DNA of 64,000 bases from Antedon mediterranea (Eukaryota; Echinodermata; Crinoidea; Comatulida; Antedonidae). The number at the start of each line of letters is the position of its first letter. The first letter of the stretch is position 1. Below, piece after piece: positions 11,801 to 56,076 of this stretch. The translations under genes and the position numbers were made by a program. The notes below the pieces were generated by a model. That model was not told the origin of the DNA, did not search any database, and was given only the letters and a program-made list of their open reading frames with translations. The stretch lies in contig NC_092677.1 in NCBI RefSeq assembly GCF_964355755.1, positions 13,910,601 to 13,974,600 of the forward strand, read 5' to 3'.

Positions 11801-14800
11801 CTGTCTATTCCGATTTTATAGCCACTAACATTCGGGGACAGTTGATTGAAATCTCCACATTTACATAGTATACTGTACAGTGTACAGTATAACGTTTTCA
11901 AAAGAAAATAGCAAAAAAAGAGGGCTAAATTGCGATTAAAAAGGTGATTACAAAATCATAATTAATTGATTAAATTGTATGAAGCATATAATTGAATCAA
12001 TAAAATGGTGGTACAAGCCAAAAAATCGGAAACAAAACTTGAAAAAAAAACAAATGTTAAAATAAAATATAATACAGTACAGTGTGTATTTTAAAATAAT
12101 TTAATCGTGATTGCTCTTATTTCGTTTGATCTTTTTCGCGTGCATATTTTATTTTTGTTTTTTGTTTGTTTAAGGGTTTTTTGTATCTTGCTGCAAATTT
12201 GTTTTAGAGTTTATTTATTGAAAAACTAACAAAGCGAACGAATTTTTGAATTATAGCAGTATTTTTAAAATGTTTAAAAAGCCTAAACAATTTTCTAAAA
12301 TTGTAGCCTAATTTAATACATTTTTGGTAATTACTATACTGACCAAAGGATTAAAAGAAACATAACGTGTACATAATCACATGCCACCAACGTCATAATT
12401 GACCTAACTTACCCTCAATTTTATTATATAATTTATTTTTTGAAAATCCACCTTAAATTGATCATTAGCAATAACTAAATTCGTTATTAATCACAAAGGA
12501 GCACCTTTTCTATCGTAAAATGACAATTACGGTATATAAAGTAAATAAAGCTCTGTCTACACTATCAAACTAGTTTGACCAAAAAAGTGTGATGTGTCCA
12601 AATATATGATAGTAGTTATATGCCCAAATATGACGTCATCATGTCCATATATGGGCACATTCTTTTGTCACATAAAGTTTGATAGTGTAGACAGGGCTTA
12701 AAACAAAGTGGGTTTAAAATTGTAACAAAATCAGATTTTGTTGGGCTCGTACAAATTTCATTCACAATTCAAAACGAGTATAAAGTATGTGCTGAAGGCA
12801 TTTATCAGTCTATTTATTATCATAATGCAAAACAAAAAAATGGTATTATAGTATATTGTAAAATAGATTAATTCATAATCGCAAAATGTTTCAGTTTTAG
12901 TAAAGATATTATTGATTCTTACAAATCAGTAATGATATTAGATAAATATCTTATGAAAACATTTTTGTTTTATTCGTTGATTTATCTGTTTCAGTAAAGA
13001 TATTACTGATTCTTACAAATCAATAGGCCTAATGATATAAGATAAATATCTTTTATGAAAATATTTTTGTTTTATTCGTTGATTTATCTTCGGTTTTATT
13101 TGTTATTTCGGTATACCTTATTAGGCCTATAGATGTTGTTATCGAAATCTTAAAACGTTAATGTTCTTGGTGCAGACAATACGACCATGGGTTATCTTTC
13201 ACAAAAAACATGTGTATGTAAAGGTTGTTAACAGAGATAGAAGAAAAGAGTATATTTTAAATGTTCTTCTTGGTCTACATAACCTGAAATCAATATAACA
13301 TGTTTAATTTTGACATTGTTTAGTTTTTATTGACAAAGAAAAATTGATTTTCAAGTGGTAGGTAAGTTTCTTTTTGCTCGTTGAACAATTTACGGGTTTC
13401 TTTAAGCCTAGGCTTCGCGAACTTCGTGAAAGCTGGTTAAGTTTGACAAATGATAACGACGTTCGAAACCTAAACATCAAACATTAACTAAACGATTTGC
13501 CGCCAAAATTGAAGTAAATCAGCATCAATTTGAATCTTGTTGTGTGTTTGATGAATGCTCGGCGTCATGCTCTATGGACATTTAGTAGAATGCCTTTTTG
13601 CAACTTTGCTACATATATCTTGATGCGAAGATACTCTTAATGTTTTGATGACTATGTATGCATTTTGTGTGACAGAATTTACAAAGGTTGTGGATAGATG
13701 GTTTATATCACACGTGCTAAAATCAATATAACAATACCGATGCTAAGATTATAATTGACATTGTTCAATTCAACCGCCGTAGCTGAGTCGATGCCCAATC
13801 GGATTTAAACCATTTTATAATATTTGAAAAATAATAAAACTCCCGATTCTTGGTGTTTCTCAAGATGTCTTCATCTTCACGGTTGATAAATTAATTAATA
13901 ATTAAATAATTTCCAGAGATCTATAGTCTTATACCACTAGGCGGTTTGGAATTCCTCCTGAATGTCAAATTTATATATTATAATGATTCAGAATTTCATG
14001 CGATAGTGTTTTTAATTGAAAATTCTTCAATTAGAAATTAACAATGTAGGTGATATCTCGATTATTTATAAGGGCGAAAATTATAATTACGGATAACATT
14101 TTTAAAATATGATTTATTAATGTTCATAAGAAGTAGGCCTACTTACATTCTTCAAACTTTATTTTTATTTTTAGGCCTACTAACAATTCTATCGCAATAA
14201 ATTGAATACTGTAGGCCTACACAATACTATTGTTTTATAAATTAAGTCCTATTGTTGATTCGGTCTGATTGTCTGAAGGATCTGCTCTTTGTTCCTAATA
14301 TTAAGGAAATAAATAGGGCGTAGATAGTGTCACCATGGAGATTTTGTTGTTCTTATTGCTTACAGTTTTCGACCCATGCTGCGCTCACATTATTTGATCG
14401 AACCAAGTACCGTTATTATGTACGACAGTAATAACACAAGTCGTAATAATTGTTTAAAAAGGGCTTGCTACTGTCGACCCCAGCTGTGCCTTACTTGTTG
14501 CTGTAGTATAATAATAACATCACAATAATAATTGTTTAAAATAGGGCTTACTGTCGCACCCTGTGCTTTACTTGGTAGTATAACAACACAAGTCGCAATA
14601 ATTGCTTTTCAGGGCTTACTTTGTCGACCCCTGTGCCTTACTTGATAGTAAAAAAACACAAGTCGCAATAATTTCTTAAATAAAGGGCGTACTATTGTCG
14701 ACCCTTGTGCCTTACATGGTAGTATAGTAATAACACAAGTCATAATACTATGTAAATTATTGCCATGTTATTTTTAACCTGGGTAGTGGACAGGTGTTAA

Positions 14801-17800: not shown

Positions 17801-20800
17801 AGAACTCTTACATAATCTGATCATGAGAAAACGTTATGTACTGATAACAAAGAAAACAGAATATAGGCCTAGGTTTTGCTAGTGTAGGCCTATATAGTAC
17901 CGGTACCCGGATTACACTAAAATAGAGCCAGTGGACTTGTAAACATTTTGCCAATTACTATAGCATAATTTCAAAGTATTTTTTAAGAGTTTTTATTTGA
18001 ATAATTCACTTCAATAAAAAAAAGTTATCGCGTGTCCAAAGTATAGGGTTTAAAAAACTATTAAACTATAGTGTGGCGTCACAGTTATTCAAGATTTCAG
18101 CCTTAACATTATTAGGAAAAAAAATGCCCGGTCTAGTTAGAAAACGTGGCATAATTTAGTATGACGTCGGGTCCACGTCTTCTGATCGCAGTACTGACGT
18201 AGGTTTTCGTCTTAGCCTTATTTGACCAGCCTAATTTGTCGATAGCGAACGACTCATTTTTCTATTGCTGACATTTTCAACTCAATTTATAAACTTTTAT
18301 GTATTTGATGAACAGCCCAGAACTTTCGCTGAGAAATTCATGCTTTTAACGGGAAGGTCATATTTTATAGCAAGTTCAACAACAGTGAATTCATGCTTGA
18401 TAAAACAAGCACGAATGTGCAATACTCGGGGTACAGCGAAAGAAGCTGTATACAGACGTATACAGTTAGAAAGTAAAGAAAATAGGTTTCGCCAGGGCTC
18501 GAACCGGGACCTTCTGCGTGTTAAGCAGACTTGACAACCACTACACTACGAAACCTCTTACATTAAAAATGTGGGTTACAGAAAGTTTTTTAATCCATTT
18601 AAATTACAAATAAATGGTAATAAGTACAAAGCAAAATAAACATGTGTAAAAGTGATAATTACCGATTACACAAAATAAGTATTTTAAAAAATAATAAAAA
18701 TAAGATATACTCTGTATAATTATCATATTGCGTATACAGTACTTTTCACCATAAAGTTTAAAAAAAAGGTTTCGTCCGGGCTCGAACCAGGTACCTTCTG
18801 CGTGTTAAGCAAACGTGATAACCACTACGCCAAGAATCCGCATATAACCATATAACTACATAACGCTGTGGTGTGTCACACACATTGTGGCTTCTTAATT
18901 AAACAAATTAATTAACAAAAAATTAAAAATCCGGCTCTATAGCTTTGAGGACATGTCCCTGTAGTATGTTCATGCCAAATCCCAGCTCAATACTATAACG
19001 AATAAGGGAGGAGTAGTACTTTAAAAATCGCACTTTTTACTCAATAGTGTCCAGATGGAGGAAGAGAAGGAGAAAATGAGTAAGTACTAGACTCGGGTAC
19101 CCCGAGTAAAAAAAACATAACCTCATGCTTTTATGAACAACAAAGATGAATAAATGGGATATACGAACAACATAATTGACCATGGCCAACGAAGACGTTA
19201 TTTTTAATTTTATGTTAAGTATCGTTTAATAAATAAACTTTCTTTTTTAATTAAATATTTAATTATTTTTTCCCAGACGAATGTTTCCGACAATCCGGGT
19301 GTCTTTTAGCGGACTACAGCCATCATGTAAATATGCAGTTCTTCTCGATGTCGTTTCTTTAGACAATAAGCGCTATAGATACGCCTATCATCGGTCATCG
19401 TGGCTAGTGGCAGGTAAAGCAGACCCTCCCCTCCCCCGGCGGCTCTACATACATCCAGACTCTCCGTTCACTGGTGACCAGTTACTAAAGCAAATTGTCT
19501 CGTTTGAGAAGTTGAAGCTTACCAACAATGAGATGGACCAACATGGCCACGTAAGATTTTTTGATTTATTTTAGACAAATGGAGCGTTTCTGGGAAACTG
19601 AATCAACAATAGCTTTAACAACAACGATTGCGCATGCGCCATAAGTGCATACTAAGTGCATGACTTATTTGTATTACGAAGTAGGTAAGACTATTTTAAA
19701 ATATTTTTCTTTAACGAAACGCGTTTGTAAACTTTTAACCAATCAGAAAGCGATGCTTTACTCTGCTTAAATGACTCGCTTGTGACGTTTTTGGTGAAGT
19801 TTACTTGTTCCTTTGACTTTTGTATTTTTCATTAACAAAACAGTGTGTGGAAGTAGAGATTGCTTCCCACATGACGAAAATGCAACCAAAGCAATTTGAC
19901 TAATCACGACGTGAAAGAGGATCCTTCACGCCGTGATTGGTCAAATCTCTTGAGTTGCGTCCTAGTATAGAAACACCTGTTAAACATTAATGTAAACATA
20001 AAAATACATATACATACATATAAACAAATGAAACATCATCAGTCTATTGTATGCAAGTTTAATATATAAGTTGATAATTGAGTAAAGTATTTTGGTTGTA
20101 AAGCAGTCTTCTACATCGACGGTGGGCCAACGAAAGTCCTTGTTAAATTACTCAAGTCAATAAATAATATGTTCATTTCGTCATCACTTCGCACTTCAGG
20201 CCTATGTAATCCCAACCACGTAGATTCAACAAACGCGGTTTTTATCGACGAGTTGGTTTGCTAAATACAATTTAACGATCATTAATGGTTTATTTCTGGT
20301 ATCAATGTTTCTGTGATTCGTTACTAATCAAAACATGTTCATTAAAAATATGTCTGTTTTTCGTCTATTCGGCTTTGCATTGAGCCCAGGATTAACATGT
20401 TAGCAGCACCGACAAGCCCCATGTAGACAGTTTGGCGCCTGCCGGTAAAGCACCTTGGTTGCGGGCTTGCGTTCCTCTTCCAACACATTCCAGGCTCATC
20501 GTAAAAACTTGACACAGTAACCGTTTATGGTTCTACTGTTTGTTTGAACTCTCGTTTCAGAAGAAAGGGTTAGAAAAACGTTAACACTTCCATAAATTGT
20601 CCCAGTAAATGCCGAATAACCACAAACAAATTAATGAATACGTTTAGTTTCAGAGTTGACCTAATGGCAAGAGCCCAGTTATCAGGCGGAAAGTGGAACT
20701 TTATACACTTACACAACAGTCTTGTTAACTTATACGTCAATGGTTGTTGTTAAATATCTATACTTATCGCGAATCTATTAATTATTTAATGTTGGGTTTT

Positions 20801-35889: not shown

Positions 35890-36560
35890 TGCTTCCTTAA
35901 ACGGCGATTCGGATTAATGGAACCTTCACCTTTCTTTTTCAATTCTTGGATATAAACATTCTAAAAGTATAATTTTCAATGTGATACGTTCTCTTGGTTG
36001 AATTCTGTTCTTTGAAGGCCTATATTACCCACCACCTCTGCCACTTTCCCAAAACAGAATGTGTAGGCCTATGCAAAATCAATTATAATAATATAATAAG
36101 TAGGCCTTGTTGTGAACAGCTTGCTCAAGTACAATGGTACTGGCGTAGTGCTTTTGAAAAAAGATGAACAAATTCTTATTATTTTCTTAAACTTATCGAG
36201 GTTAGAGCTGCAAATTCAGAAAACTGTAAATGTGTTTTATTGTTTGTACTGTACTATGAAAATATAGATTTTATCTGTAAATGCACATTGTCATCTTTTT
36301 AACTATGATTCAATTATCCATTTTAATCTTAACAATACGGTTAAGAATATCGGGGTAATAAAAGATAAATTTAGACCAGTTAGTGAACAAATGTTATTTT
36401 ACTATTTCACGACTCAATGATTTTATACAATCATTAAATGTATTAATTGGCGTCATAAATTGAATAAGTAGATAGTTTTATTCTGGTAGCGGTTATGTTA
36501 CTAAGACGCCATTTTAAGATTTTCGCATTCGTAATGCACGATAATAGGTGTACCATATTT
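35890..36560 (+). repeat. Upstream block A of the GPCR array
   Basis: This segment is collinear with block B at about 37240-37780. Both contain TTACTATTTCACGACTC-like and TAATTGGCGTCATAA words, GTTACTAAGACGCC and an AGGCCT-rich start, in the same order. Block A leads into the relic signal-peptide exon and block B into gene 1. It is therefore a duplicated promoter or 5' flank. Confidence 0.85.
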
Positions 36561-37190
36561 AACAGCAATACTGTTTTTTCTTTCATTCATAATTATGATA
36601 AGAGTGACGGCAGCCGTGTGTTTCTGATCTTGTTCTGTGTGTTTAACTCTCTCCAAGGAGTTGCAATATTTTAATGTTTTATATTCAGAAACAGAAAATC
36701 AACAATTGAAGTTTTAAAGAAGAATTAAATAAGAATTACATTTTGCTTAGTAAAGTCATCATATCTCAACCACGGAGTTAAATACGGAATTAACTTAACT
36801 TGAAGTTAAAGTTCATAAAGTTTAGAATGCAAACTGGAACTTCTACAAGGAAACCCGTCTATTCCAGTAAAATACCTACAGTATTATTCACTTTCGTATT
36901 AACAGAAATTGAACAATTGTTTTATTTAAAAAATTATTAACCAAGTCCGGTCAATCTATTTAGGTTTAGTATTATTTTTTTATTGTTTTATTTATTTTTT
37001 CCATAATAGATAATATTGGACAACAACATATTGGTTTTTAGCAATAGTAAGAGCCACTTCGAACATTTTTATTTATTTGATTGATTGTTAAACAGTGTAT
37101 ATTATATTATTGGTTTATGATTAAATTATTGTGTAATCAATGTGTGTACATAGTTTGTTTATTTTTTAATTCTTTGCGTCAATGGATGTA
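36541..37190 (+). pseudogene. Adhesion GPCR relic: first exon joined to last exon
   Basis: At about 36535-36590 lies a decayed signal-peptide exon like gene 1's (GTACCATATTTAACAGCAA, CTGTTTTTTCTTTCATT). Its second ATG is ATA and one base is lost after the first ATG. About 15 bp later the sequence matches the end of the last 7TM exon (FLILFCVFNSLQGVAIF), then hits TAA where the intact genes continue. The following ~550 bp is collinear with the 3' flank of gene 1 (44860-45330). All intervening exons are missing, so an internal deletion or unequal crossover between copies is the simplest origin. Confidence 0.88.
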
Positions 37191-37239
37191 AACACACAAA
37201 TATAATTTGCAATGTTACACGTTCTCTCGCTTGAAATAT

Positions 37240-37780
37240 GTTCCTTATTTTGTAGGCCTCTATTATCCACCACCGCTTCCAATCCTCCAAAACAGAACGT
37301 GTATGCAAAATAAATTATTGTTGTAAACAGCTTGCTCAGGTACAATGGTACTGACGTATAGTGCTTTTGAAAGAGAATAACAAATAAAGTTGTATTTCCT
37401 CAAACATAATATGTAAGTTAGAGCTGCAGATTCAGAAAACTAATTAAAAATAGTTTCAATGTGTTGTATTGTTTGAATTGTTATTTGGAAATATAGATTT
37501 TATCTGCCGTGTAAATGCACATTGTCATCTTTTTAACTATGATTCAATTGTGCATTCTTTATCTTGACAATACGGTTAAGAATATCACTGTAATAAAAGT
37601 TAAATTTAGATCAGTTAGTGAAAAATGTTAGTTTACTATGTCATGACTCTATGACTTTATACAATCATTCAATATATTAATTGGCGTCATAATTGAATAA
37701 GTAGTTTTATTCTGGTGGTAGCGGTTATGGTACTAAGACGCCGTTTTTTTAAGATTGCAGCAATTTGTAATGCAATCGAT
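37240..37780 (+). repeat. Upstream block B (5' flank of GPCR gene 1)
   Basis: Paralogous to block A at 35890-36560, with small indels. It probably contains the promoter of GPCR gene 1, since it ends at that gene's signal-peptide exon. No TATA box could be assigned with confidence. Confidence 0.8.
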
Positions 37781-37781
37781 A

Positions 37782-37833
37782 ATGGGTATACAATATTTAA
37801 CAGCAGTACTGTTTTTTCTTTCATTATCAACTG
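37782..37833 (+). CDS. GPCR gene 1 signal-peptide exon
   Basis: Encodes MGIQYLTAVLFFLSLST, a short hydrophobic secretion signal, ending in phase 1 at ACTG|GTAAGT. The upstream in-frame ATG at 37770 would add MQSI; gene 2 has a matching pair of ATGs. Confidence 0.85.
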
Positions 37834-40800
37834 GTAAGTACATAATGTATTATTTTTTATTTGAATTTATGTGTGTTTTGTTTTTTTTCAGATAACAATC
37901 TCCACTAAAAAATCGTGCTAATACTAGAAATTGCAATCTTATTATTAGTATATTTAGTAAAAAGTTGTAGGCCTAGGCCTATTTCATTTCAAGAAAATGT
38001 ATTAAACCAATATTACCAATAACAATACATATAATATGATTAAGACATTTTAAAGATCATCATTATTCAGTTAGGGGGTCAGCTGTGGTCATGTTACAAA
38101 GAGAGAGTTGTCAAAACAATATAGATAACTTAACCATATAAAACTCCTATAAAGTAGGAATCATTTTGCCATTTCCCCTAAATGTATTTGATCTTGGTAT
38201 TATAAAACAACGTTTCCTGTCGCATGCAAACGCCCAAAGAAACAACAAAAACTACTTGCATTGCACCTTATGTATGTAAATCAGTAATATGAAATTAACC
38301 TTTTTAAATTAAAGAAGAATTAAAGATAGTTGTGTCTGTGTCTAAACTAAACTAAAGGTGCCCGACTTTATGAACCACCCTCATAACAGTTTTAGGGTAT
38401 GTTCAGACTCAAGGCGTTAAGGTAGAGTTATGTAAGCGACGTACACATTTTTGTGTCTGAACCAGTCCGCGGATATTTATTTATTATTTAATTAGCGTTA
38501 GGGAGCTGTTACTCCGCGCCAGTGGCGTTAATAACCCAGCGGGAGAGAGTAGGTTTAATAACGCTAATCCAGTGATGCATCTGTGATTTTAACCTTAACC
38601 AATTAAAAGACACGCTCTCCCAAATTTAGCTCAAAAGGGATACTAAACTAAAATATATTTTTAGCAGGCCTATAAACAAACAAAATATATCAGATGAACC
38701 TTTACCCTAGGCTCTAGGTTACACATGGCAGGCAAGAAATCGATCAAGGCTGAGGAATTTCCGTGGCAGATTGTAGAATTAATTCGATAACTTCACCCTG
38801 CTTTATGAACTTTTGTGAACTTTTGGTTCAATTATTAAAGACTTTTTATTTTACCATAATGTTATTATTTTTTTTTTTTTTTATTTTATATATTTAGGCA
38901 AATTGCCAAGGATAACCATAAGCAAATTCAATCACTATCCTTCTTAAAGGTGGCAATCCGTTCACGAGACAAACATATACACACAATGCTCTACATAAAC
39001 AAAGTCTTTATTACAAGTCTTTGGGAGTGGAGTTGTAAATTGTCATTAGAAAAAATCCTGACATATGACAGGACTTGAACCCAGGACCCTTGGATTGGCA
39101 GCCAAGCATCATAACCACCAGGCCACAACTCCACTCCATATACTTATCTTCCATATGTATTAGCCTAAATTCTGAAGTCATTTTGTATACTTGCAATTTG
39201 CTTGTCCTCATAGTTTCTCTTATAATGCCTCTTTGGCAACATTCTCTTTTGATGTTATTCTTGCCCTTTAACAGAACTGATGACTTCAACAGTGGCAACA
39301 TCAACAGAACTGGTTACATCAACAATGCCAACAACAACAGAACCGATTACTTTAACAATGGCAAAAACAACAGAACTGATGACTTCAACAATGGCAAAAA
39401 CAACAGAACTGATTACTTCAAAAATGGCAACAACAACAAAACTGATGACTTCAACAATGCCAACAACAAAAGAACTGATTATTTCAACAATGCCAACAAC
39501 AGAACTGATGACTTCAACAATGGCAAAAACAACAACAACAACAATACTGACTACAGGTTTCTTTCTTCTTTATAATAATAATAGTAATAATAAAAAGTAT
39601 GAAGCTGACGATGATTTCCACAGTATTAAAATCAAAACAGTAATGTACACAATGTCTGCATGAGAGAAAGTTTACCTTCATTGATATTTGTATTGATATA
39701 TCCATGAAGAAACAAAATTGTAAACGCCTGAATAAATGCCTAACTTCACTTTACATTCGAGTACTGTATTCTAGTGCACTTGATATTGACTATAAACCAT
39801 TTTTACGACAGCTCCACCAACGATTGTGTGCCCCGATGATGTATTATCATATACATCATCTCCGGATTGGGTAGTACCAATAGCAAATACGAATGAAACA
39901 CCGGTTAATTGTACAAGTCAGCCCGGAGACTCTTATCCAATCGGATCGATTACGAATGTTACGTGCAGTACAACAGACGAAGAAGGACAGAAAGAAAGTT
40001 GCAAATTTAGAATTGTCATTTTTGGTAAGAATAGAGATGTTCGAGATCCTTGGTTAATACAGGATCAAATAATTTGATTTCACAGAGAGCAATAGACTAG
40101 GCTTACAAACCATTTCATGTCGTCATCGACATCTCTATCGCCCAACACAAATGACCAAGCCGATTGTCGTATTAAACTATCTAAATAATGAACTTATTAT
40201 TTTAAAATTAAAGTTCGAATAAAAGAGTTCAAATGTGCAGACATGTATAATACTTTAAAAATCGTATTTATTTTTATTATAGCAACTGATGATCTTTCTA
40301 CAAAGATAAGCGATCTCACAAAGGTACTGTGCCATAATGTATACTTTTTATTATAGTTATGTGATCAATGATTGTATATTTTTTTCAGTGTAGGCCTACA
40401 GTAGACGCAAGTGACATACAATCGTTATAAAAATAGAGTTTACACACCAGGGTTTTGCTGATCAATGTTAACCTATATTTTCCCTTTCCGGACCTTGATT
40501 ATCTTAACTAACACGCTTCTCTTCAGGACGTTAATGAAGAAAATGTTGAAGAAATTGCGATTGAGCTTGAGGAAATAGTAGAGAAGGCAGACGACTTTCA
40601 AGCAGCTGATGTACAAGAAGTATCTGTAGCTTTGGATAGAATAGCTGACATCGAGTCACCAAACGAAATGGTAAGTTAGAAAATATTACTCTGTATTCGA
40701 TTTGAAAGATAAAATGAAAAATAAAACATACAGTGCTGATACAGAGGGTAGTAGAGTAAAAAGAAAATTGAAAGAACATAAAACAGAATAGCTAGTTATA

Positions 40801-43800
40801 GAACTATAAGAATAAGCTAATTATATCAATCATACCAGCGTGGTTTTATTCCATGGGCTTAAGCTAGACTATGTATATGCATAATGTTGGTGGGTTTTGC
40901 CTATCCTAGATCCGAAATTCCCCAATTAAATGTTGGTATCCTATAACTTCATAAGGTGGAAAATTGAACAAGCCTCAATATCACGTGTACGTATGGTGTA
41001 AAAATATCATAAATACGAAGGCACAATCTATGTCCCATTGTAGGTTACTGGTGCCGTAGTCGGTATCGTCGATGCAGTACTCACATCAGACACGGAATTA
41101 ACGCCTGAAACCACCTCTGTCATCCTTGAGTCTTTGGAGCAACAAATTAGTACAGCTGCCACTGATGGTCAGAATTACACTCAGAATGAAGAAACGTTGT
41201 CTGTGCAGACTTTAAGTTTTGAGTCTGATGTTCTTAAAACTGATGTTGTATTTATGGTGAACGACAAACAGACAAGACCTGAGATTTGTTTTGATGATCA
41301 GTGTGGGGTGATGTATGACCAGACGTCTATCACATTGCCAAAGAATGTGGTTGCAAATGGTATTAACAGTGTAAAAGTTGTTTTTAGATAATACTGTAAC
41401 TATACTCTCTTGTTCTGAGTAACCTAAGTAGCATTTATTGACAATAACGAATACTTAGTCATCAAACCTTTTAATGTTCAAATAGGACTAAATAAAGACA
41501 CTTGTGAAACAAGTATTACGGTAGGCCTACCCATGTAAATAATTATTATGCCTAGCAAACAGCCTAGTGCATCTCTATAACTAGAATTACTAATAACTCT
41601 TGGTAAAGCACCGGCGGATACTACTGTACAGCTGTATCATTCAGTGCACAAATATATCATTGTTCTTGCGCTACATTTATGGTGGACACTACAACATTAT
41701 TTTTCTTCAGTTGAGTTCATACATAGGTCTAATAATAAGTATGATATTGTATTCTCATTTATCACTTATTATTGAGTGCTTGATTAATTGTTTATTTTAT
41801 TTGAAACAGATCAAAAATCCAACATCAGTTTTACATCTTATTACAATTCAAACTTGTTCCAGAGCTCTAGAAATATAACGTTATCGAAGGTTATCCTATC
41901 TGCTACTGTGTATGATGACAACCTACCACATGTGTTTGAAGAACCGATTACAATTGTGTTCCAGAATATAGAGGTTGGTGTGTTTTTTGCTTGAGTTGTG
42001 TTTTGTTCAGGAAAAAGGAAAAGGCCTCAGACATTAGAATAGGTAGCCATATGGATGGGTATTAAACATGAAGGTTGTAAAAACCAGTAGGCCTACTTAC
42101 GGGTATCCAAAATATTCTCGGTGCTGTGTTAAATCAAGGCAACCCAAGAACAGGATTCTGAGTTCAAAAAGTTTATCTGTGGCTGCATGGGTGCTGAATT
42201 AACCAAGTCATCGGGATGCTGAACTCCGGTTAATTTAACGCTTCGACAGGATAATTCGTTGTCCACTAAAAACTTTTTGACTGTTGCGATTGGCCAATTA
42301 TAGACATCCCCGAATGTTTAGAACAGACACCGCGCCGTCGAGAATATGTACCCTATGCATACAGTTTACTGTGAATATTTCTCGCCGTCAAACATAAGAT
42401 CAAGGGACTGTTACGATTTCTTACCTTGCCAAGGCGAGCTCAGCCTCCTGTTGCCTTGGTTAAACTGGATAACATTAACATCAGTTTTAGTGTAGAGATT
42501 TTTGTTCTTACTAGTAGTGACTATTTTGTTTTTATTTCGTACGCATCAAACAGTCTTGCCAGGATGGATAAATTATGGATTATAATTCATCGTCCTTATA
42601 AACTCAGTCTCATTTGAGTTACATCCCTGGAACCAGGGCAGGATTGAACTCTGGACTCTCGGATTGGAAGGCAAGCACGTTAACCACCAATCTACAGCTT
42701 CACATATAGCCAAATACTAGCACGTAGCCTAAATTTTCAACACTGTTTCTAACTTTTCAAAACCAATTCTAATTGAACAGGATTATGTGAATGCCACCTG
42801 TGTATTCTGGAACACAACACTCAACGGCTTTGGCGATTGGTCAGAAGAGGGATGTACGCGTGTAAATGTGGACGATGAGAGTGGTATAACATGTCAATGT
42901 ACCCATCTTACCAATTTTGCTGTTTTATTTGATGTACGTTTTACTTATTTTCAAAATGCGTGTAAAATCTAGTTACTGACTTATATTTCACCAATCATGA
43001 ATATGGATTTTTTTTTCATTTCTTTACAGTTTCAAAATACACCGAAAGGTCTTGAAACATTTTTGGACATAGTGACGTATGTAGGCTGTGAGGTGTCGAT
43101 ATTTTTCCTGCTGCTTACAATGGCCGTTATTTTATTTACAAAGTAAGTTACTAGTTACTACAGTTCTTGTTGAATTGAAATTTATATTTATACTGGGTAA
43201 CCTCTTCAGTCAAAGACTGGTCTCCCAGAGGGCCCAGTTGGTGATCAGTGGCTGTGATGTACTAATACACCGGGGTAACCCCCTACTCGTCTCGAAAGAT
43301 GTACTAGGTTCTTTAAAGTGCACACGAGCTAGATGTGTACACTGGACCTACGGTTTATAGTCCTTATCCGAGAAGACTCGTTCTACCACCAGAACCGATG
43401 TTATGGCTACGTAATTACGGTTCCACTGTCTTAACCGCTCGGCCACTCACTCACTCACTCACAGTTTGTATCTGGAATGTTATGAATTGTATATTTAAAT
43501 GCCTATGAAAGAATCAGGTAGTTTCTATAGTATTTTATAGTAGGTGACAAAAAATGTGAACAGTCGCTATTTTTTTATACTGAAGCAACTATATTCATGT
43601 TTGCTTTAGGCCTATAAATAATCCAGTTAAAAATGTTCAGTTCCATTCCATAATCTTAAAATGTAATAACTGCAGAATATTTTAATGTATATTTTTATAT
43701 GAGGACAGAATAGTAATGTCTAAAAATCTAATTTAAACAGATCTCTTCGTAAGCTTCAACCTCAGAAGATACTTTTAAACCTTTGCGCCTCTCTCACTTG

Positions 43801-44916
43801 TCTGTATATCACATTCATATGCGGTATTGATACTGCAACTCCTGGTACTGTACCGTGTATAGCAATCGCTGTATTGTTACATTACTTTCTCTTGGCATCT
43901 ATCGCATGGACAGCTGTGGAAGCAGCCAACATGTACTTGTATTTTGTTAAAGTTGTTCGGGCCAAAACTTCAAAATCAAAAATATTACAGTGTTCGATGG
44001 TCTTAGCTTGGGGTAAGTACTGATGTCTATTTTCTAACAGAGTTTCCTAGTTGCATCGTAACAAACTTGTTAATAATGTTGTAATGACTAAAAAATAGTA
44101 ACTGTCCATCATAAAGTGCAAAGTTACAATTTGAAATAATAATGTAGGCCCTGACAATGTTTGTTGTTAACCCCGCAGATTTTTAGTATTGGGAAAAAAG
44201 TTAATACGTTAATTATATTCTTTGTTTACTAATTGTTCCTAGGTCTTCCGCTCATACCACCAATATTTCTACTCTTATTCGATTTGAAATTCTATAAAAA
44301 CACAGATTAGTAAGTACATTTATTATAAATAATTCATTCTCTATACCGGTAGACTACTGGTTTCGGTTTCTATAGGCCAAAGTCCAAAATATAAAAAGGA
44401 AAACAATATGATGAGATTGATATATTTTACATGCTAGAAAAAAAAACTATAGGCCTAATGTTTTATCTAACATTATAGGCTTTAAATGGTAATACTATAT
44501 CTGTTTTGTGTATACATATTTTTTTTTAACTTCACAGTTGTTATGTTAACACAGATGACTCAGACAATTTCATCTATGCTGTTGTTATCCCGATTGCATT
44601 TGTCATGGCCTGTAACTGCATTATGTACATAATGGTTCTTAAAAGTTTGTATTTTTCTCGTTCTAAAGTACGGGCAAATATGTATAAGCCTAATAGATTG
44701 AAAAAGAAGAAGAATCGAATCTCAAACGCGATCGCACTGTCTTTCCTCCTAGGCCTGACATGGATGTTCGGATTTCTCTCTTTTGTAAAGAAGGACAGCA
44801 GTCTTGTGTTTCTGATCTTGTTCTGTGTGTTCAACTCTCTTCAAGGAGTTGCAATATTTTACTTTTTTATATTCAGAAACAGAAAAACACAAATTGAAGT
44901 TTTAAATAAGAATTAA
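37782..44916 (+). CDS. Adhesion GPCR gene 1 (HYR-GAIN-GPS-7TM)
   Basis: Exons: 37782-37833, 39275-39556, 39812-40024, 40283-40323, 40527-40670, 41044-41359, 41810-41973, 42781-42933, 43030-43142, 43741-44012, 44243-44309, 44538-44916; 731 aa with every junction in frame. Order: signal peptide (1-17), Thr-rich repeats (18-111), HYR domain (112-182), GAIN region (about 197-404), GPS (405-455) with C411, W414, C429, C442, C444 and predicted self-cleavage at L447|T448, then seven membrane segments including LLGLTWMFGF (TM6) and FNSLQGVAIF (TM7). The tethered agonist starts TNFAVLFD. A cell-surface receptor; its ligand is unknown. The cytoplasmic tail is very short (about 14 residues). An in-frame ATG 12 nt upstream is shared with gene 2. 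AATAAA lies at 45357. Confidence 0.94.
37834..39274. other. GPCR gene 1 intron 1
   Basis: AT-rich. Contains a tRNA-like element with inverted flanks (39024-39137) and no recognised exon. Confidence 0.5.
39024..39137 (-). mobile_element. tRNA-like element bounded by 13-bp inverted repeats
   Basis: GGAGTGGAGTTGT at 39024-39036 and its exact reverse complement at 39125-39137 bound a tRNA-like body. Read on the minus strand it has box A TGGCCTGGTGG, an anticodon-arm-like CTTGGCTGCCAATCCAAG and box B GGGTTCAAGTCC. It may be a short tRNA-derived SINE or a tRNA-Gly-like relic whose acceptor stem encloses extra sequence. Confidence 0.6.
39275..39556 (+). CDS. GPCR gene 1 Thr-rich repeat exon
   Basis: Encodes about eight copies of an 11-residue unit of the form ELMTSTMAKTT (33 bp), one copy a residue short, ending TTTTTILTTG. 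Such Thr/Ser arrays are usually heavily O-glycosylated stalks. The equivalent exon of gene 2 (46409-46567) has no repeats, so the array expanded after duplication. Confidence 0.85.
39812..40024 (+). CDS. GPCR gene 1 HYR domain exon
   Basis: Encodes CPDDV, SPDWVVPIANTNETPVNCT, PGDSYPIGSITNVTCSTTD and a C-terminal C-F-I-V strand. This is the pattern of hyalin (HYR) repeats, extracellular adhesion modules with an immunoglobulin-like fold. It is a single-exon module, phase 1 at both ends. Confidence 0.88.
42637..42702 (-). mobile_element. tRNA-derived SINE fragment
   Basis: On the minus strand it reads AGATTGGTGGTTAACG (box A region), CTTGCCTTCCAATCCGAG (anticodon-like arm, TCC) and AGAGTTCAATCC (box B). 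It lies in intron 7 of GPCR gene 1, just upstream of the GPS exon. Confidence 0.5.
42781..42933 (+). CDS. GPCR gene 1 GPS exon
   Basis: Carries the CxFWN, W, GC and CQCTHLTNFAVLF pattern of a GPCR proteolysis site. Cleavage is expected between Leu and Thr of HLT, freeing TNFAVLFD as tethered agonist. The exon ends GAT|GTACGT, one codon later than in gene 2. Confidence 0.93.
43200..43465 (-). mobile_element. tRNA-derived SINE with GTGA microsatellite
   Basis: On the minus strand it starts with a (GTGA)n run, then GTGGCCGAGCGGTTAAGAC, a Leu/Ser-type tRNA box A. A long body follows that includes CTCGTGTGCACTTTAAAGAA and CGAGACGAGTAGGGGGTTAC, words I associate with SINEs of many marine invertebrates. 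It lies in intron 9 of GPCR gene 1. The short frame through it is not a gene. Confidence 0.6.
44538..44916 (+). CDS. GPCR gene 1 last exon (TM5-TM7, short tail)
   Basis: Encodes the second extracellular loop Cys region (CYVNTDDSDN), TM5, the basic third loop, TM6 and TM7, and ends soon after FRNRKTQ. The 3' UTR at 44953-44984 still reads like the LAISTTE tail codons of gene 2. Confidence 0.93.
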
Positions 44917-46103
44917 AGAAGAATGAAATTTTGCTTTAAAGTAAAGTTATTAAGTTAGCTATCTCAACCACAGAGTTGAATACGGGGTTAAATTTCATAA
45001 AGTTTAGAATGCAAATTGGCGACTTGTTTCATACAAGGAAACCCGTTCAATAATTTCGTATTAAAAGAAATTGAACAATTTTTTTATTTGTAAATTAATA
45101 ACTAAGTCTGGTCAATCCACGTTGTTGACATTTAGTAGCTATTTTTTCCATAAAAGATAAGACTTGACAAAAAAAAATGGATGTCGTTAGTAGTTTTCAA
45201 AAGATGGCACTTCGAACATTTCTCCTTTTGATTGATTGTGAAACAATGTTTATAGTTATACTATTGGTTTTATGATTACATTATTATGTAATCAATGTGT
45301 GACGTGTACCATTGGTTTGTTTTGATACCATAAGAAATTATCATTTTAATAGACGTAATAAAACATTGTTGCTGTCAAGATTACAACGCAATTACCTATA
45401 CAGCCTTTAGTGCTATGATAAAGTAGCATGTTATGTAACTGCTTTTATAGACAATTATATTAGACTAGTACATGTGTGAAGTCTTATATTTTGTTGTTTG
45501 TTGTTGACGTGATACAGCTTTGTATTATAGGCCAAATGCCCACACTATAATTTTACTTCGTTACTATTTCATGAGAATGTCGGGTAATTTCTCAAAATGT
45601 AGGAATATACTATTGATTTTCTCAAAACATTCTTTAAAATTTAATTCAAATTTTCAAACCAATACAACTTAATGTAGGCCTACAGTATAAATGACGTATA
45701 GGCAGACCCGTAATACTTTCAAAGGAGAATAAAAGAAAATATATTTCTTGTTATTTTTATTCTAATTCTGCCTAGGATTTAGTAAACTGTACCAGTACTA
45801 AGAATCAAAAAGATGTGCGACTTTTCTTTTTTATTTGTACCTTTAAGAGCATTGAGGAAATGAATTTATTTTCTCCATGTTAAGAGGTAGTTAAGTATGT
45901 GCCTTTGTCCGGATTGTTATCTCTTTGACTATTCTTTATTATAACTTGACAATACACCTAATCATAACAACGATCAAATATTGATATAACTTTTTTATAA
46001 ATTTAATGTCTTGGTGATTTTTGTCACGCAAACATGACATTATTCTTACTATGGTAGTTACCGTATGTAGACCTTCCTAGATTGCAGAAAATTAAAAATT
46101 CAA
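44917..46103. other. Interval between the two GPCR genes
   Basis: The first ~450 bp is gene 1 3' UTR, with AATAAA at 45357 and similarity to the relic's 3' flank. The rest must include the promoter of gene 2. No TATA box or other site could be assigned. Confidence 0.55.
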
Positions 46104-49100: not shown

Positions 49101-52100
49101 GTACGCGTTGGACCATCAAGGCTAGGCCCAGCTTCGCACAAACCACCGTTATACATGTGATTTGTTTACCTATTTCAATCGCCATTTAAAAAATATCTGA
49201 AAATATCAACATGCCCATTTTTTGTCAAACGAATATTTACATTACATAGTAACTTTTTATTTAGTCACTCGTTTACTCAAAAATTGAGGAATTTTTTTAT
49301 GGTCTCGTAAAAATGTACAATATTATTATTGATAAAAACCGTATAAAATCTAACAAAAAGAAGAGCAAATTCAATGATTACCTGACACGATCATAACTGC
49401 TATCCTGTTCCAAAAACCAAGTCACATGCTTCTTCAACCCTTGCTTTAATTATTCTCATGAATTATTCATAAGAAACTATAATTTAAGGCTTTCAATTGG
49501 TTAAAAGAGTTTAACCCTATTAAAATTTTTAATTCACATCATTTCCGGGTGATGTTGTCGCGCTTCGATGAATCTCAGAAATCACAAATGACCGCTAGAG
49601 GGCTCACTACTTTTTGTCTAGTCTAAATGAATGTGCCATTTAAAAAGTAATTCTCGTTGATATTTATTCACGATATCACCTGTTGATTTGCAACTTCCTT
49701 AAGGCCACGGCCGGCAAGATATATGGTGTTTAAAAGTGTTTGCTTTAGAACAGGCTTTCATCTTACCACTTTGTATGTATGTCTTGTTTAATTTGTCCAT
49801 GGATTAATATATTTGTATTTACTTTATTTTTCTATCACAATGGTCGCAAATTCTAGTAACAGGCTATTGTGTCTATTGAATATACATTACTGTATTTAAA
49901 ATACCATTTTCACGACAGCTCCACAAACACTCGAGTGCCCCGGAGACATATCTACGAATACATCATCTCCAGTTTGGGTAGTACCGATAACAAATACTGT
50001 ACAATTGGTTGATTGTACAAATGAGCCCGGAGACTCCTATCCAATCGGATCGGTTACACAAGTTACTTGCAGTGCAACAGGCGAAGCAGGACAGACAGAC
50101 AGTTGTACATTTTACATTACTATTGGTAAGTAGACGAGACTATTGTACATAACGACACTGTACTCTCTCGATAGTGCTACATAACATTTATTTTATATCA
50201 TGTGACACACAATCGTCCAATCAACTAGAGACATGGCAAACACATTCATGTAGAAATCTGCATTAGTAGGCCTATTGCTAAATTGTTAGTAAGCCTACTT
50301 ATTTATTTTATTACAGAAACTGATCTATCTGTAAAAATAAACGATCTCACAAAGGTACTGTATAATGCTTGAATTTGTACTTACTATACATTTAGTGAGA
50401 AGACCTCTGAACTATCCCGATATTTTAGTCATCTCCTGCTCTCTCCCCAAATTGCAATTTCTCCCGATATTTTGGATAAACCGTAAATCACCCGATATGT
50501 ATCAATTTATAATTTCTACTACTCTAAATATTAAGAAAATAGAAAACATAGGGAATATCGGTCAGTATATGCCTAATTAAAGTGAAATAATGAGTTGCAA
50601 GCGCATTTTTTGACTTCGGCACGCATTATAGATGCCAATAATATTGTTTTATTTTGTTAATAGCGCCCTCTATGGGTTGATGTAATATTATAGCGCCCTC
50701 TATAAGTGTTCAGAACAAGTTTTGTCGATTTTATGTGCGTAAATTTGGTTCTATTAGCAAAGATGTTCTTATTAATTTAGCGGGTAGGCGTAAGTTATTT
50801 GATTTAATTTTTCTTTTTAAGGCTGTGAACTCAATTTTCCATGGTAATTTTGAAGTGTACTTTCCTATTTCTGTTCCACAATATCAATTGCGTAATCCTG
50901 CTTTATTTTCTATATCAAGAGGGAGGGTAAATATTACTAAAAATGGTTTTGTTAATCGTTTGCCTAAGTTATACCACTCACTATGTAAAATTGATGGATC
51001 TGTTGATATTTTTTTTGATTCCCTTGCTTGTTTCCGTCACAAGGTTTTGTCTAATGTCAGTAATATTTAAATGTTGTCTTGTTATCTATTGATTTTTGCT
51101 TGTATATAATATGTTATATTTTACGACTTTCAACCCTGTTAATGGTGACGTTTGGTCACTGTAGGGTGATGATGAAATAAAATAAAAAAATAAAAAAAAT
51201 AGTTTCATAAAAACATCCCGATAATTCATTTTCCAAGTTTGGAGATCTGAGTAGAGACAAGACTAGTTTACAAGAATTGTAATTAATATAAAATAAAATA
51301 AAAGTAATTTCACACTTCCCCGATACAATGAATCTGTTTAAATTGCGTTATTTCAACGCACTCACGTGACTCTTGTTTCTTACTTTGAGCTGATTTAATA
51401 ATGAATTTGATATTTAAATGGGGTTTTTTTCTTTTATAAGCATCTGCTTCAAGAATTTTCCCCTTTTCTTTGTTTAAATCAATTTTGTAATTATAAATGT
51501 TAATTTTGTCGTTTATTTATCTACTTTATTTACAAAGAAAATAAAGAAGTTGTCATTGTCATAACAAGAAAGAGCGTTCAGGCTTCAAACTTAATTAGGG
51601 CCTACACGTGTCATAAATAATAACATTTTCACAGCAAGTTAATATTTCATGTATCTTTTTGCACTATTAAGGTCAAATTGCTCTTTATCTTGCGGTTAAT
51701 CAGATTTCGGTTTAAGGTGTAATTAACAAATCCATCTTTTTTGTGGGAGTTGGATTTTTGGAACAGCTGGTTTATCTCAAAATTTACCATTAGGCCTACA
51801 TGTGTAAATTGTAAAGTCCGAAGGAGCCCTTGGATGGGTTTCTCAATCCACAAACAGACCCCGTCTATGTTTAAGTTTCTATTCAGGACGTCAACGAAGA
51901 GAATGTTGAAGAGGTTGCTGTTGAGCTTGAGGAAATAGTAGCGACAGTAGAAGATTCTGGTGGCCTTCAACCAGCTGATGTACAACAGGTATCTGTAGCT
52001 TTGGAAACCATAGCGGATATTGAATCACCAAATGAAATTGTAAGTTAGATTATGTATAACACTGAACATGTCATTTAGTTAGGACTACAATTATCTATTT

Positions 52101-55100
52101 GAATTTACCTCAGTGCCGGTCCGAAGTCGAGACCTACGTTTTTGTTTACACTTGGGCAGAGCCATGAAAGAGTGAAATTAATTTGAAAACAATTCCTGGG
52201 TAGAGCATACCGATCCGGTTCGGTGTGTGGATACAGCAACGACTACTCAATTAAAAGCAGCTGTCATGAGGCAGAATTAAATGTTGCTGACTATCGACAC
52301 CTAGGTACGAGTCTAGGTGTATTATTTATCTACGTCATATGACAGCTGCAAAATCAGTCGCAAAATGGTAAGCACATTTTTTCCATTTTCAGGTTACTGA
52401 TGCCGTGGTCGGTATTGTAGATGCAGTATTAGGCACGTCCGAGTCATCAGACACGGAATTAACGCCTGAAACAACCTCTGTCATCCTCGAGTCTTTTGAG
52501 CAACAAATTAGTACAGCTGCCAGTGATGGTCAGAATTATACTCAGAATCAAGAAACGTTGTCTGTGCAGACTTTAAGTTTTGACTCTGATAATATTAGAA
52601 ATAATGTTGTATTCGTGGTGCAAGAAGAGAAGAAAACGACTGAGATTTGCCTTTATAGTGGCTGTGAGGTGTTCGACCAGTCTACTATCACATTACCAAG
52701 AAATCTTGTTTCAAATGGTATATTTTGTACAAACAGCAACATTCTCTTCGGGCCGCTAACCCGGTCTCTTTTTCTTATTGGTCAACTAAAATAAGTAATA
52801 TATAATAATGATATATTTGCAACAACCTTAACTTACTCAATAACAATGTAAAGCACTAAATAGTCAAATAATTATTAGGTTAAACTATGGTCGCCTACAA
52901 AATCATGTATGAACACAGCGTACTATGTGTCTGAAACATTTATCATTATTTATTTTATTTGAAATAGATCAAAGGTCCAACGTCAGTTTTACGTCTTATT
53001 ACAATTCAAACTTGTTCCAGAGCTCTAGAAATATAACGTTATCGAAGGTTATCCTATCTGCTACTGTGTATGATGACAACCTACCACATGTGTTTGAAGA
53101 ACCGATTACAATTGTGTTTCATATTATAAAAGAGGTAAATGTTGAACTTGTTTAGTGTTATAACAATCAAAGGTTAGACTTACCTCTCCTTAACTATTTT
53201 ATACACAAGTGATCTCAGTACTGTATACAATGTTTGCAGTCAATTGCCGTTCTGCACATAATTTCGGTCTAGTGCCTAACCTAAAATTACCCCTTTCTGA
53301 AATTTGATCTTAATTCTATGAGCACTATATCATAATGATAACAATACATAGCCCGAAAAAAAACACTGAGGCTGTGTTACTTGGACAAGTATTTTTTTTT
53401 TTTATTTTGACCATACTGACCCTGTGTGACCTTTGACCCAAACACCACAAAGTAACATTGCCAGTCCATATATCTAAAAAGTAAAGGTGATTAATCAATG
53501 AAGTTTAGGAGTGTCCTCTAATTCGCAGTAGTTAAGCCGAGATATTACATATACTTTATCAACACACTTTCTTACTTTCTAATTAATAATACAGTATACT
53601 AATACATTTTAACAGGATTATGAGAATGCTACCTGTGTATTCTGGGACACAACACTCAATGGCTTTGGTGATTGGTCAAAAGAGGGATGTACGCGTGTCA
53701 ATGTGGACGATGAGAGCAGTATAACATGTCAGTGTACACATCTTACCAATTTTGCTGTTTTATTTGTAAGTTTTACTTTTTTTTGTACAAAAAGTGTGTA
53801 TTGTCTCACATTGTGAACCCGTTCATTAATCTGCTGTTTTATTTATAATTATTATTATATTATTTTATAGTTTCCCAATGAATTGCCAGAAGAATCTGGT
53901 GTGCTTTTGGACATATTGACATATGCAGGTTGTGGGTTGTCGATATTGTGCCTGCTTATTACAATAGCCATTATCATATCTACAAAGTAAGTTACTATAA
54001 TTTTTGGAAAGTATATTTTTCTATCTGAAGCATGCAACAGGCGTGCATATTGCTTTACAGGAGACTATAGGTGACGATAACTATCAATTTCTTTATAAAA
54101 AAAAAGTGCCAAAATAAACTTTCAACCGCAATACAATAAGTAGAATAGAAAATTTATAGAATACTGTAACGTAAATAAATTCGTTTGAACAGATCTCTTC
54201 GTAAGCTTCAACCACAGAAGATAATGTTAAACCTTTGTGCCTCTCTCACTTGTCTGTATATCACATTCATATGCGGCATTGATACTGCAACTCCTGGTAC
54301 TGTACCGTGTATAGCGATCGCTGTATTGTTACATTACTTTCTCTTGGCATCTATCGCATGGACAGCTGTGGAAGCAGCCAATATGTACTTGTATTTTGTT
54401 AAAGTTGTTCGGGCCAAAACTTCAAACATTTTACTGCGTTCTATGATCTTCGCTTGGGGTAAGTATGATTTATACAGAACAATGATAAAAAATAACCCAA
54501 AATGTTGATACCGAAATTCATTTTGAGTATAACAGTACAATGCATATTAGTATTTTATAAATATTTTAGTTTTATACTCTCCTTTTTTTTAATCTAGTTT
54601 AATCATTTCATTTGTTGTCTTTTGCTGTTTTAATTTGTATAATTGTCAAAAAAGGCAATTGTCCAATTTATGGTCCAATAAAGGATCTTGAACAATAACT
54701 GTTGACATCATCATCATGAAATGCACAATTAATAATTTTAAAAAAATGTTTCCTTAAAATCTCGACGTAAGGTTTTTCCGTAATATTACGCACATGCGGG
54801 CATCAATTTGTTTACAAATAATAATAAAAATATAACGTTACCGGCACATATTGAGAAACAACGTTATAAATAACCGAGATGTAGATGCAGTTACCACTCC
54901 CTACAAAATAATATAAATTCTTTGTTTACTAACTTTTTCTAGGCATTCCGCTCATACCACCAATAGTTCTAATGTCAGTAGACAGGATGTCATTCTATGA
55001 AAACAAAGACTAGTAAGTACTGTATATTTAGTAGTCATTCATTCTCTACTGGTTTGTTTTCGTTCTGGTATATAATAAAAAAAAAACATACAAAAGTCAG

Positions 55101-56076
55101 TATGAAATTATATTTGTAGTAAGGAGAATACAAATGCATAATAATAGCAAAAACTAATGAAATAGAAATATTTATATAATTGATATTTATAAGAAATTAA
55201 ATTCAAATACATTTTTATTTTATTTCATATTTACAATATTAATATTGAAATATATACATATGATTATAGAAATACAGACACTTAGGTCTTGCATTAGTCT
55301 CCATGTGGAAATGCGTCTTAGTATTTAGTCACTCATACTTCTTTAATTGTTAATCTATGCGTAATTGTTAATATCTATGGACCACCAGAGATTTCGAAAT
55401 AAAAGAATGAATTGAATTACGACGACTGTAACAGATCCTGAAAAATAAAACAGATGAGCCAAATTCATAATCTATTTATTCCAAACAATGAAAACAAGAA
55501 ACAAAATGAATCCATACATGATAGAATAACAAAAATGTTTCGGTTTTATCTTTTTTTTATGTGAGGTAACCCGTATACAAACTATTTTTACCTTTCAGTT
55601 GTTATGTTAACACGCATGACTCAAACGTGTTCATCTATGCTGTTGTTATCCCGATTGCATTTGCCATGGCTTGTAACTGCATTATATACATGCTGGTTCT
55701 TAACAGTTTGTACTGTTCTCGTTCCAAAGTGCTGGGAAATAAGTATTCTACGTTGGAAGAGAAGAAGAATCGAATCTCTAACGCAATCGCATTGTCTTTC
55801 CTCCTGGGCTTGACATGGGTTTTCGGATTTCTGTGTTTTGATAAGAATGACGCCAGTCTTGTGTTTCTGATCTTGTTCTGTGTGTTTAACTCTCTCCAAG
55901 GAGTTGCAATATTTTACTTATTTATATTCAGACAAAGAAAAACAAGAAAAGATAAAAAACATAATTTTAAAAGAGGTTTAAAGAGGAATGTTTCGGGGAA
56001 AAAAGCTATTAATACGGCAAATAGCGATAGCACCATTGAGTTAGCTATCTCAACCACCGAATTCAATACTAAGTGA
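46116..56076 (+). CDS. Adhesion GPCR gene 2 (HYR-GAIN-GPS-7TM)
   Basis: Exons: 46116-46155, 46409-46567, 49919-50125, 50317-50354, 51887-52039, 52393-52717, 52968-53134, 53616-53765, 53871-53986, 54193-54458, 54943-55012, 55599-56076; 722 aa, in frame throughout, with the same intron phases as gene 1. Order: signal peptide (1-13), a non-repetitive Thr/Ser-rich segment (14-66), HYR domain (67-135), GAIN region (149-363), GPS (364-413; predicted cleavage L406|T407, agonist TNFAVLFF), seven membrane segments with LLGLTWVFGF and FNSLQGVAIF, and a basic tail of about 50 residues ending STTEFNTK. Cell-surface receptor of unknown ligand, tandem paralogue of gene 1. The introns have diverged strongly from gene 1 while several exons remain almost identical. 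ATG 46104 is an in-frame alternative start. Confidence 0.94.
46568..49918. other. GPCR gene 2 intron 2 (3.35 kb)
   Basis: Holds a repeated ~130-bp block (about 46845-46980 and 47300-47430), a GC-rich island near 48005-48105 in otherwise AT-rich DNA, and many AGGCCT motifs at 48.2-48.9 kb. No additional exon was recognised. Confidence 0.55.
46815..47430. repeat. Dispersed repeat, related copy at 60.07-60.30 kb
   Basis: Contains ATTGTCCCCCT, TTTTAAATATG, AACTTGATTAAAACTATAA, CATATTCAAAG and GTTTGTGGGGGTA in this order. The same words occur in the same order at 60080-60300. Within this copy, GGGAGTTTTCTGGAACAAA and a GACGAAATACTAAA-containing block are repeated about 455 bp apart. Confidence 0.65.
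50640..51200 (+). mobile_element. Non-LTR retrotransposon 3' fragment
   Basis: An open frame at 50735-51070 encodes about 111 residues resembling the C-terminal part of Jockey/CR1-type reverse transcriptases (RRKLFDLIFLFKAVN, an ISRGRVNITKNGFVNRLP block, FRHKVLS). It ends in a stop, a short 3' UTR and an AAATAAAATAAAAAAATAAA tail. The catalytic domains are absent, so it is a 5'-truncated dead copy inside intron 4 of GPCR gene 2. TATAGCGCCCTCTAT-like words occur twice just upstream. Confidence 0.65.
52254..52350. repeat. Small inverted-repeat element
   Basis: GCAGCTGTCAT near 52257 and ATGACAGCTGC near 52338 are exact reverse complements, about 70 bp apart. A smaller CACCTAGG/CTAGGTG pair lies inside. 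It resembles a short non-autonomous element in intron 5 of gene 2; the borders are uncertain. Confidence 0.45.
53616..53765 (+). CDS. GPCR gene 2 GPS exon
   Basis: Has CVFWD, the GDW Trp, GC and CQCTHLTNFAVLF with the expected cleavage at HL|T. It ends TTT|GTAAGT, so the tethered agonist continues TNFAVLF-FPNE after splicing, without the Asp found in gene 1. Confidence 0.93.
54590..54692 (+). mobile_element. Retroelement 3' tail
   Basis: The stretch AATTGTCCAATTTATGGTCC, then AATAAAGGATCTTGAACAATA, is typical of the 3' ends of CR1/L2-like elements. No coding part was recognised. Lies in intron 10 of gene 2. Confidence 0.35.
55370..55432 (+). mobile_element. Retroelement 3' tail
   Basis: GAAATAAAAGAATGAATTGA followed by ATTAC resembles the short-repeat ends of CR1/L2-like elements. 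Only the tail is recognisable. Intron 11 of gene 2. Confidence 0.3.
55599..56076 (+). CDS. GPCR gene 2 last exon (TM5-TM7 and basic tail)
   Basis: Encodes TM5 to TM7 and a Lys/Arg-rich cytoplasmic tail ending ELAISTTEFNTK. This tail is about 35 residues longer than in gene 1 and is the likely ancestral state, because gene 1 keeps the matching bases after its stop. Confidence 0.93.

Follow-up and report, generated by a model that had tools for sequence, protein, structure and literature searches.

Insertion of GGCC at TA accounts for the excess of the word TAGGCCTA in the genome of Antedon mediterranea, possibly as a transposon excision footprint

The systems closest to the one described here are the footprints left by transposons that target TA, and short palindromes that are unusually abundant in whole genomes. 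The Minos footprint is composed of a TA duplication and four terminal nucleotides, and palindromes of the HIP1 type are over-represented in cyanobacteria. The length stated for Tc1/mariner footprints is 2-4 bp (PMC7913693); for Sleeping Beauty a review names CAG (PMC8151067), and another source prints the footprint as TAG(T/A)CTA (PMC2874221). The Sleeping Beauty and Tc1/mariner footprints are like the word TAGGCCTA in having a short fixed sequence between duplicated TAs; the crinoid case differs in that this sequence is GGCC, that no element with GG..CC ends was found, and that 128,596 intact words are an extreme number. TAGGCCTA shares with the Minos footprint the same total length, 6 bp, but not the terminal sequence, and with HIP1 that it is a short palindrome present in extreme excess throughout the genome, to which paralogous pairs here add an insertion origin bounded by TA. 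In the same genome the pogo/Tigger-type (DDE_1) elements have TA-bordered CAG ends and matching inserts, which account for CAG/CTG but not for GGCC, and the abundant PIF/Harbinger-type (DDE_Tnp_4) elements, some of them with TAGGCCTA arrays, have the ends AAGC.., TAGCGAGC.., CTAACGCC.. and TAAAGCC.., not GG..CC. Among the papers listed by literature searches for the word and for footprints on a genome-wide scale, which left most subscription journals outside, none was concerned with this excess, as judged by titles and the opening of abstracts.

The window, that is, the whole stretch of 64 kb that was analysed, contains 51 copies of TAGGCCTA, whereas 100 shuffles gave 0.46 on average and never more than 3, and the flanks of the 51 appear mutually unrelated. 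No other palindromic 8-mer of the window is as enriched, the runner-up being GCCTAGGC (29-fold on 4 sites), nor is any other TA-NNNN-TA word, where the runner-up is TACCGGTA (5-fold on 3 sites); TAGGCCCTA is in excess as well (4 vs 0.17). The initial annotation had spoken of a genome-wide excess, and this is borne out: in 354,431,138 bases on 18 contigs TAGGCCTA occurs 128,596 times and the reversed word 1,587 times, which corresponds to an 81-fold excess and a density of one per 2.8 kb, and the 14-mer ATATAGGCCTATAT is found 775 times vs 2. A second TA word is over-represented in the window, TACAGTA/TACTGTA, with 57 sites vs 12 expected, and the abundance of TAGGCCTA rivals that of TACWGTA.

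The question of how the word arises was opened by a tandem duplication, whose elements are the following.

12891 to 12987, plus strand: tandem unit 1, with the empty site (self-BLAST against 12985-13089, 86.7%; TRF 12894-13089, period 102)
12930 to 12931, no strand: TA, the empty site of unit 1 (sequence and alignment)
12985 to 13089, plus strand: tandem unit 2, with the filled site (self-BLAST)
13024 to 13031, no strand: TAGGCCTA in unit 2, 6 bp more than the TA of unit 1 (sequence, word count, alignment)
13122 to 13129, no strand: extra TAGGCCTA directly beyond the tandem duplication, which has no partner (word count)

Read directly, unit 1 is TACAAATCAG TA ATGATATTAG and unit 2 is TACAAATCAA TAGGCCTA ATGATATAAG. 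The contrast of TA and TAGGCCTA that was first annotated is confirmed, for units of about 102 bp, by the sequence, by self-BLAST (86.7% identity over 105 columns), by TRF (2 copies) and by a MAFFT alignment of the two units, which places a single clean 6-bp gap at the TA. This pair is by itself weak evidence, because the units also disagree in the base just 5' of the TA (G/A) and, further along, by a separate 2-bp indel.

Further cases come from unrelated TAs, at which the proposed insertion with TA duplication, bounded by TA, does recur: a second independent pair in the window, copies of a MITE, the tandem units of locus L055 and a transposon family. The features in the window are listed here.

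36064 to 36071, no strand: TAGGCCTA, the filled member of the second pair (35900-36620 aligned against 37150-37850 shows a 6-bp gap at TA)
37302 to 37303, no strand: empty TA of the second pair (alignment; AGAACGTG TATGC at 37294-37317)
12548 to 12699, no strand: old MITE of about 165 bp, a genome-wide test bed and itself no scar (inverted repeat; at least 84 match rows; alignment of the window copy and 20 others)

The second pair reads GTG TAGGCC TATGC at 36064 and GTG TATGC at 37302. Among the transposon families the clean case at a bare TA is ACATATACAG in L070/L071 vs ACATATAGGCCTACAG in L066-L068, and there is also a 9-bp case composed of GATA and GGCCTA.

In the first loci, 29 instances of TAGGCCTA had an aligned partner, L029 and L036 being excluded and the 36064 pair falling under the flank threshold. 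As the duplicates are young, 18 of the 29 face only the same motif; the other 11, among them the tandem site at 13024, face something else. Three belong to L055, whose tandem units read TAgcc vs TAGGCCTAgcc and differ also by GTA, and three to L041, where the arms of a foldback differ by GGCCTA and the third instance sets TAGGCCTA against TAGACCAA in the other arm. Two are in the L035 array, in which TG, TAATA or no sequence at all takes the place of the motif in other units, with partly unclear borders; one in L042 is a 3-bp difference adjoining a common motif; and one is in the L034 satellite, where TAGGCCTA is confined to a single unit and faces TAGGCCTG in 25 alignments, that is, a substitution. 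The expectation that presence/absence pairs elsewhere begin and end at TA is borne out by the recurrences named above; it fails for the L034 substitution and for TAGACCAA in L041, and some borders in L035 and L070/L071 are unclear or longer.

The MITE at 12548-12699 permits a wider look at single TAs. Its search, which scored 40 of 4,020 candidates, gave at least 84 match rows, and the 21 aligned sequences (20 copies and the window copy) have a clear consensus without an insert, so that inserts at its TAs are gains. Inserts at a first MITE site, at a second one and at a SINE site were tallied by hand in the rows listed, which were 100 of 185, 100 of 245 and 17 of 17, respectively. At one TA in the terminal repeat the TA-duplicating insert pattern has 92+93 matches vs 1+7 for the reversed pattern, and among the 100 of 185 matches listed GGCC makes up 4 of the 8 four-base inserts (P 1.6e-8 under equal words). 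The 35 three-base inserts in the same listed matches are CTG (15), CAG (8), CAC (5), GGC (2) and five singles, CAG/CTG therefore being 23 of 35, where two CTG rows, separated by 332 bp, may represent a single event; nested MITE ends account for many of the longer inserts. At the second TA inside the MITE, among 100 of 245 matches listed, GGCC is just 1 of 14 four-base inserts, and CAG (6) and CTG (3) appear among 19 three-base inserts, with local repeats as noise. At the SINE site, in 17 rows, GGCC was none of 4 four-base inserts, and the 4 three-base inserts are CAG (2), CTG (1) and GCC (1); since its control pattern has 3+2 matches vs 8+9, the matches are partly due to chance. Dating by the rarity of GGCC among MITE copies was set aside, as the tested TA has an unfavoured flank. 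The MITE itself is probably an offspring of the PIF/Harbinger-type family of L079/L080, because its end resembles theirs (TTAAGCTCTGTC..).

These cases show, with high confidence, that TAGGCCTA arises by insertion at TA, through the addition of GGCC and a second TA. The maker of this insertion is a further question, and we favour the reading of TAGGCCTA as the excision footprint of a TA-targeting cut-and-paste transposon, to which we give about an even chance. Like a Tc1/mariner-type footprint, the word combines insertion at TA, with a duplicated TA, and an invariant spacer within the range of 2-4 bp. The element would have a TA target and ends in GGCC or GGC; it would insert with duplication of TA and be excised with a short 3' overhang, after which end joining would leave the nucleotides of its termini flanked by two TAs. 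An overhang of GGCC is self-complementary; alternatively, two GGC overhangs could anneal via two G-C pairs and be filled in to GGCC. A minor product of joining may be GGC or GCC, seen in 2 rows at the terminal-repeat TA of the MITE and in 1 at the SINE site. Once established, a motif gains and loses GGCCTA units, by slippage or by renewed insertion, and grows into arrays.

The best reason for reading GGCC as an excision footprint is that CAG has a scar and a likely source in hand. DDE_1 (pogo/Tigger-type) has at least 47 matches in the genome, of which nine were fetched. L081 has TA followed by CAGTAGAACCTCC at both ends, its exact border resting on resemblance because the inverted match runs ATA further out, and L082-L084 have ATA followed by CAGTCAACTCTCC at the single compared end. 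The TACAGTA/TACTGTA inserts thus match terminal bases of TA-bordered elements of the same genome (L081 at both ends, L082-L084 at one), and ACTGATACAGTAGGCC in L082 vs ACTGATAGGCC in L083 and L084 is a CAG change at a TA adjoining the motif. In other loci, outside the islands described below, the enrichment of CAG/CTG flanked by two TAs is 4.7- to 4.8-fold. For CAG the scar and a likely source, pogo-type elements with TA-bordered CAG ends, are both present in this genome.

Against the excision reading stand the GGCC counts at the second MITE site (1/14) and at the SINE site (0/4) and the L034 motif that arose by substitution, and no source appeared in the loci examined. Of the initial proposal, a TA-targeting transposon with GG...CC ends, the insertion at TA stands, while no such element came to light in the loci examined for three families of transposase or in the 224 kb scanned. 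In fact no GG..CC ends were found in the 8 loci examined for DDE_3 (Tc1-type, at least 8 matches), in 14 + 19 loci of DDE_Tnp_4 or in the 9 of DDE_1. DDE_Tnp_4 has at least 150 matches in the genome and some of its elements carry internal TAGGCCTA arrays; one end each of six multi-copy families reads AAGCCTGG.., AAGCTGC.., TAAAGCC.., TAGCGAGC.., CTAACGCC.. and TTAAGCTCTGTC.., and as excision products the ends of these six fetched families do not match the inserted GGCC. TAGG..CCTA inverted repeats were 4 of 4,423 pairs in 224 kb, similar to control words (L081-L089 were excluded here and covered in the scan of pogo-type loci), and 31 of 7,809 with motif-bearing ends included, the motif then contributing matches of its own; the same hunt within the window gave no source. 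The balance of transposases in the genome is at least 150 DDE_Tnp_4 and at least 47 DDE_1 matches with just at least 8 of DDE_3. At L021 and L025 the DDE_3 matches adjoin inverted copies of a hairpin, which we take to be histone-3'-end-like.

Established motifs are also unstable. Transposon copies at least 96% alike (L031-L034, L086 and pairs below 96% excluded) offer 79,768 pair columns with 326 substitutions and 50 distinct indels. Of six 6-bp indels among them, five consist of TA and GGCC, four adjoining a full motif and one a partial motif (L082, CCTAGGC), and because all five lie beside such a motif they show instability of the hexamer, not insertion at a bare TA, and slippage or re-targeting may be at work in them; one of the two 5-bp indels is TA and CAG. 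Existing motifs change their unit number (TAGGCCTA, TAGGCCTAGGCCTA), as seen in L066-L069, L076-L078 and L074/L075. In a rough comparison, near-identical copies differ in unit number at 6 of 30 motif sites vs 1 of 2,231 other TA sites, most of these changes being counted in either direction and two of the six being multi-unit or complex. At one array site L068 is long and five of six copies are short, and as the related L070/L071 are short too, the longer state is new; at another site L068 shows an apparent loss of one unit. Slippage fits the multi-unit changes well and the changes from a lone motif poorly, and renewed insertion at C-TA-G would explain the latter because its product keeps C-TA-G on both sides. 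The initial annotation had foreseen neither the unit-number instability nor the second footprint-like word, TACAGTA/TACTGTA, which occurs at the same kind of sites.

Among 209 runs of TA(GGCCTA)n, counted with near-duplicate loci removed and with some loci chosen for clustering, 188 are single, 19 double and 2 triple (49 of 50 single in the window). Motifs of the window lie closer together than random TAs, with 7 gaps no longer than 50 bp vs 2.0 (P 0.002; P 0.008 within the occupied part), and clusters such as TAGGCCTAGCCTAGTACTAGTAGGCC occur near the C1 start. At C1:6600-8000, C1:80050-83350 and C1:159150-159750 (L041, a long foldback, and L044-L046) there are islands with many TAGGCCTA, in which TAs are split by short G/C spacers (CTAG, GCCTAG, GTAC); the spacers G/C, GC and GCC are enriched there 2.2-, 2.6- and 11-fold, and C..G flanks are foremost (21/48). 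The islands suggested a variable-length G/C tailing at TA, which was rejected, since outside them GGCC spacers between TAs are 110-fold and 70-fold enriched and GC, GG/CC and single G/C merely 0.4- to 1.2-fold. The clustering of motifs and the islands with differing flanks are not predicted by single random visits of a transposon.

A rival explanation is a direct addition of GGCC by a staggered TA-cutting activity that involves no full-length transposon and perhaps transfers or copies the unit from motifs already in place, a possibility that we consider rather unlikely. Insertion into C-TA-G gives two new C-TA-G and therefore self-feeding growth, arrays and islands, which would suit the C..G flanks foremost in islands; the contrast of 6/30 motif sites with 1/2,231 other TAs, whatever the direction of most changes, and a source element being absent from the transposase loci and the 224 kb scanned point the same way. 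However, we know of no such activity, the parallel insertion of CAG/CTG can be explained by a transposon, and in the window G..C flanks are foremost (9/51) and C..G flanks are 1/51. That TAGGCCTA is a self-propagating micro-insert, in which a TA-cutting activity and the palindromic GGCCTA hexamer, with no full-length transposon, seed bare TAs, re-target their own products, have spread to more than 10^5 copies in 354 Mb and are still active, seems to us distinctly doubtful. A microsatellite-like multiplication of GGCCTA, by which the excess would be mostly duplication of old copies, is unlikely: the 19 double and 2 triple arrays, the unit-number changes, the apparent unit loss in L068 and two short alleles that already contain nearly two units agree with it, but 188 of 209 runs are single and have unrelated flanks. 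A pre-existing repeat was present or nearly so in the five recent hexamer changes, and the gains at bare TA offered no unit to slip on, which refutes slippage as sole cause and leaves it as a likely contributor in arrays.

Two further explanations dispense with insertion. Base substitution could build the word, which would then persist because proteins bind it or because mutation is biased; TAGGCCTA is palindromic, words one mismatch away number 58 in the window against about 14 expected (summed), and one L034 satellite unit did acquire the motif by base change. We hold this to be very unlikely, as those pairs that are clean and informative differ in length, by 6 bp at TA, and the one-mismatch neighbours also fit the decay of whole motifs. 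An ancestral motif whose empty copies are deletions is highly improbable: for the two window pairs, which may be read in either direction, a deletion between direct TA or GGCCTA repeats would serve, but the MITE copies show gain on a consensus without the insert, and at the array site mentioned above five of six copies and L070/L071 are short and L068 alone is long.

Should the 128,596 words be for the most part excision scars, they would constitute a countable record of DNA-transposon movement that far exceeds the surviving elements. Each scar would be a past visit, readily found, with a known empty state and roughly neutral decay, and scars would provide presence/absence markers and a measure of excision in nature. 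If no transposon is involved, a TA-directed activity that adds hexamers would be unknown biology; either way the explanation of a striking word excess would be mutational and not regulatory.

Other repeats and genes are present in the window. Long window pieces used as DNA queries were abandoned, their matches being dominated by young repeats. A young repeat of about 710 bp at 18404-19113, in which two tRNA-like stretches were recognized by eye, has at least 39 copies elsewhere at 97-100% identity, and two SINE-like repeats at 38863-39142 and 43170-43455 have copies elsewhere at 93-100% identity. A tandemly duplicated gene at 39796-45301 and 49903-55944 was dropped as a test pair, its flanks being unalignable at its 7 motifs; its frames are, by eye, adhesion-GPCR-like.
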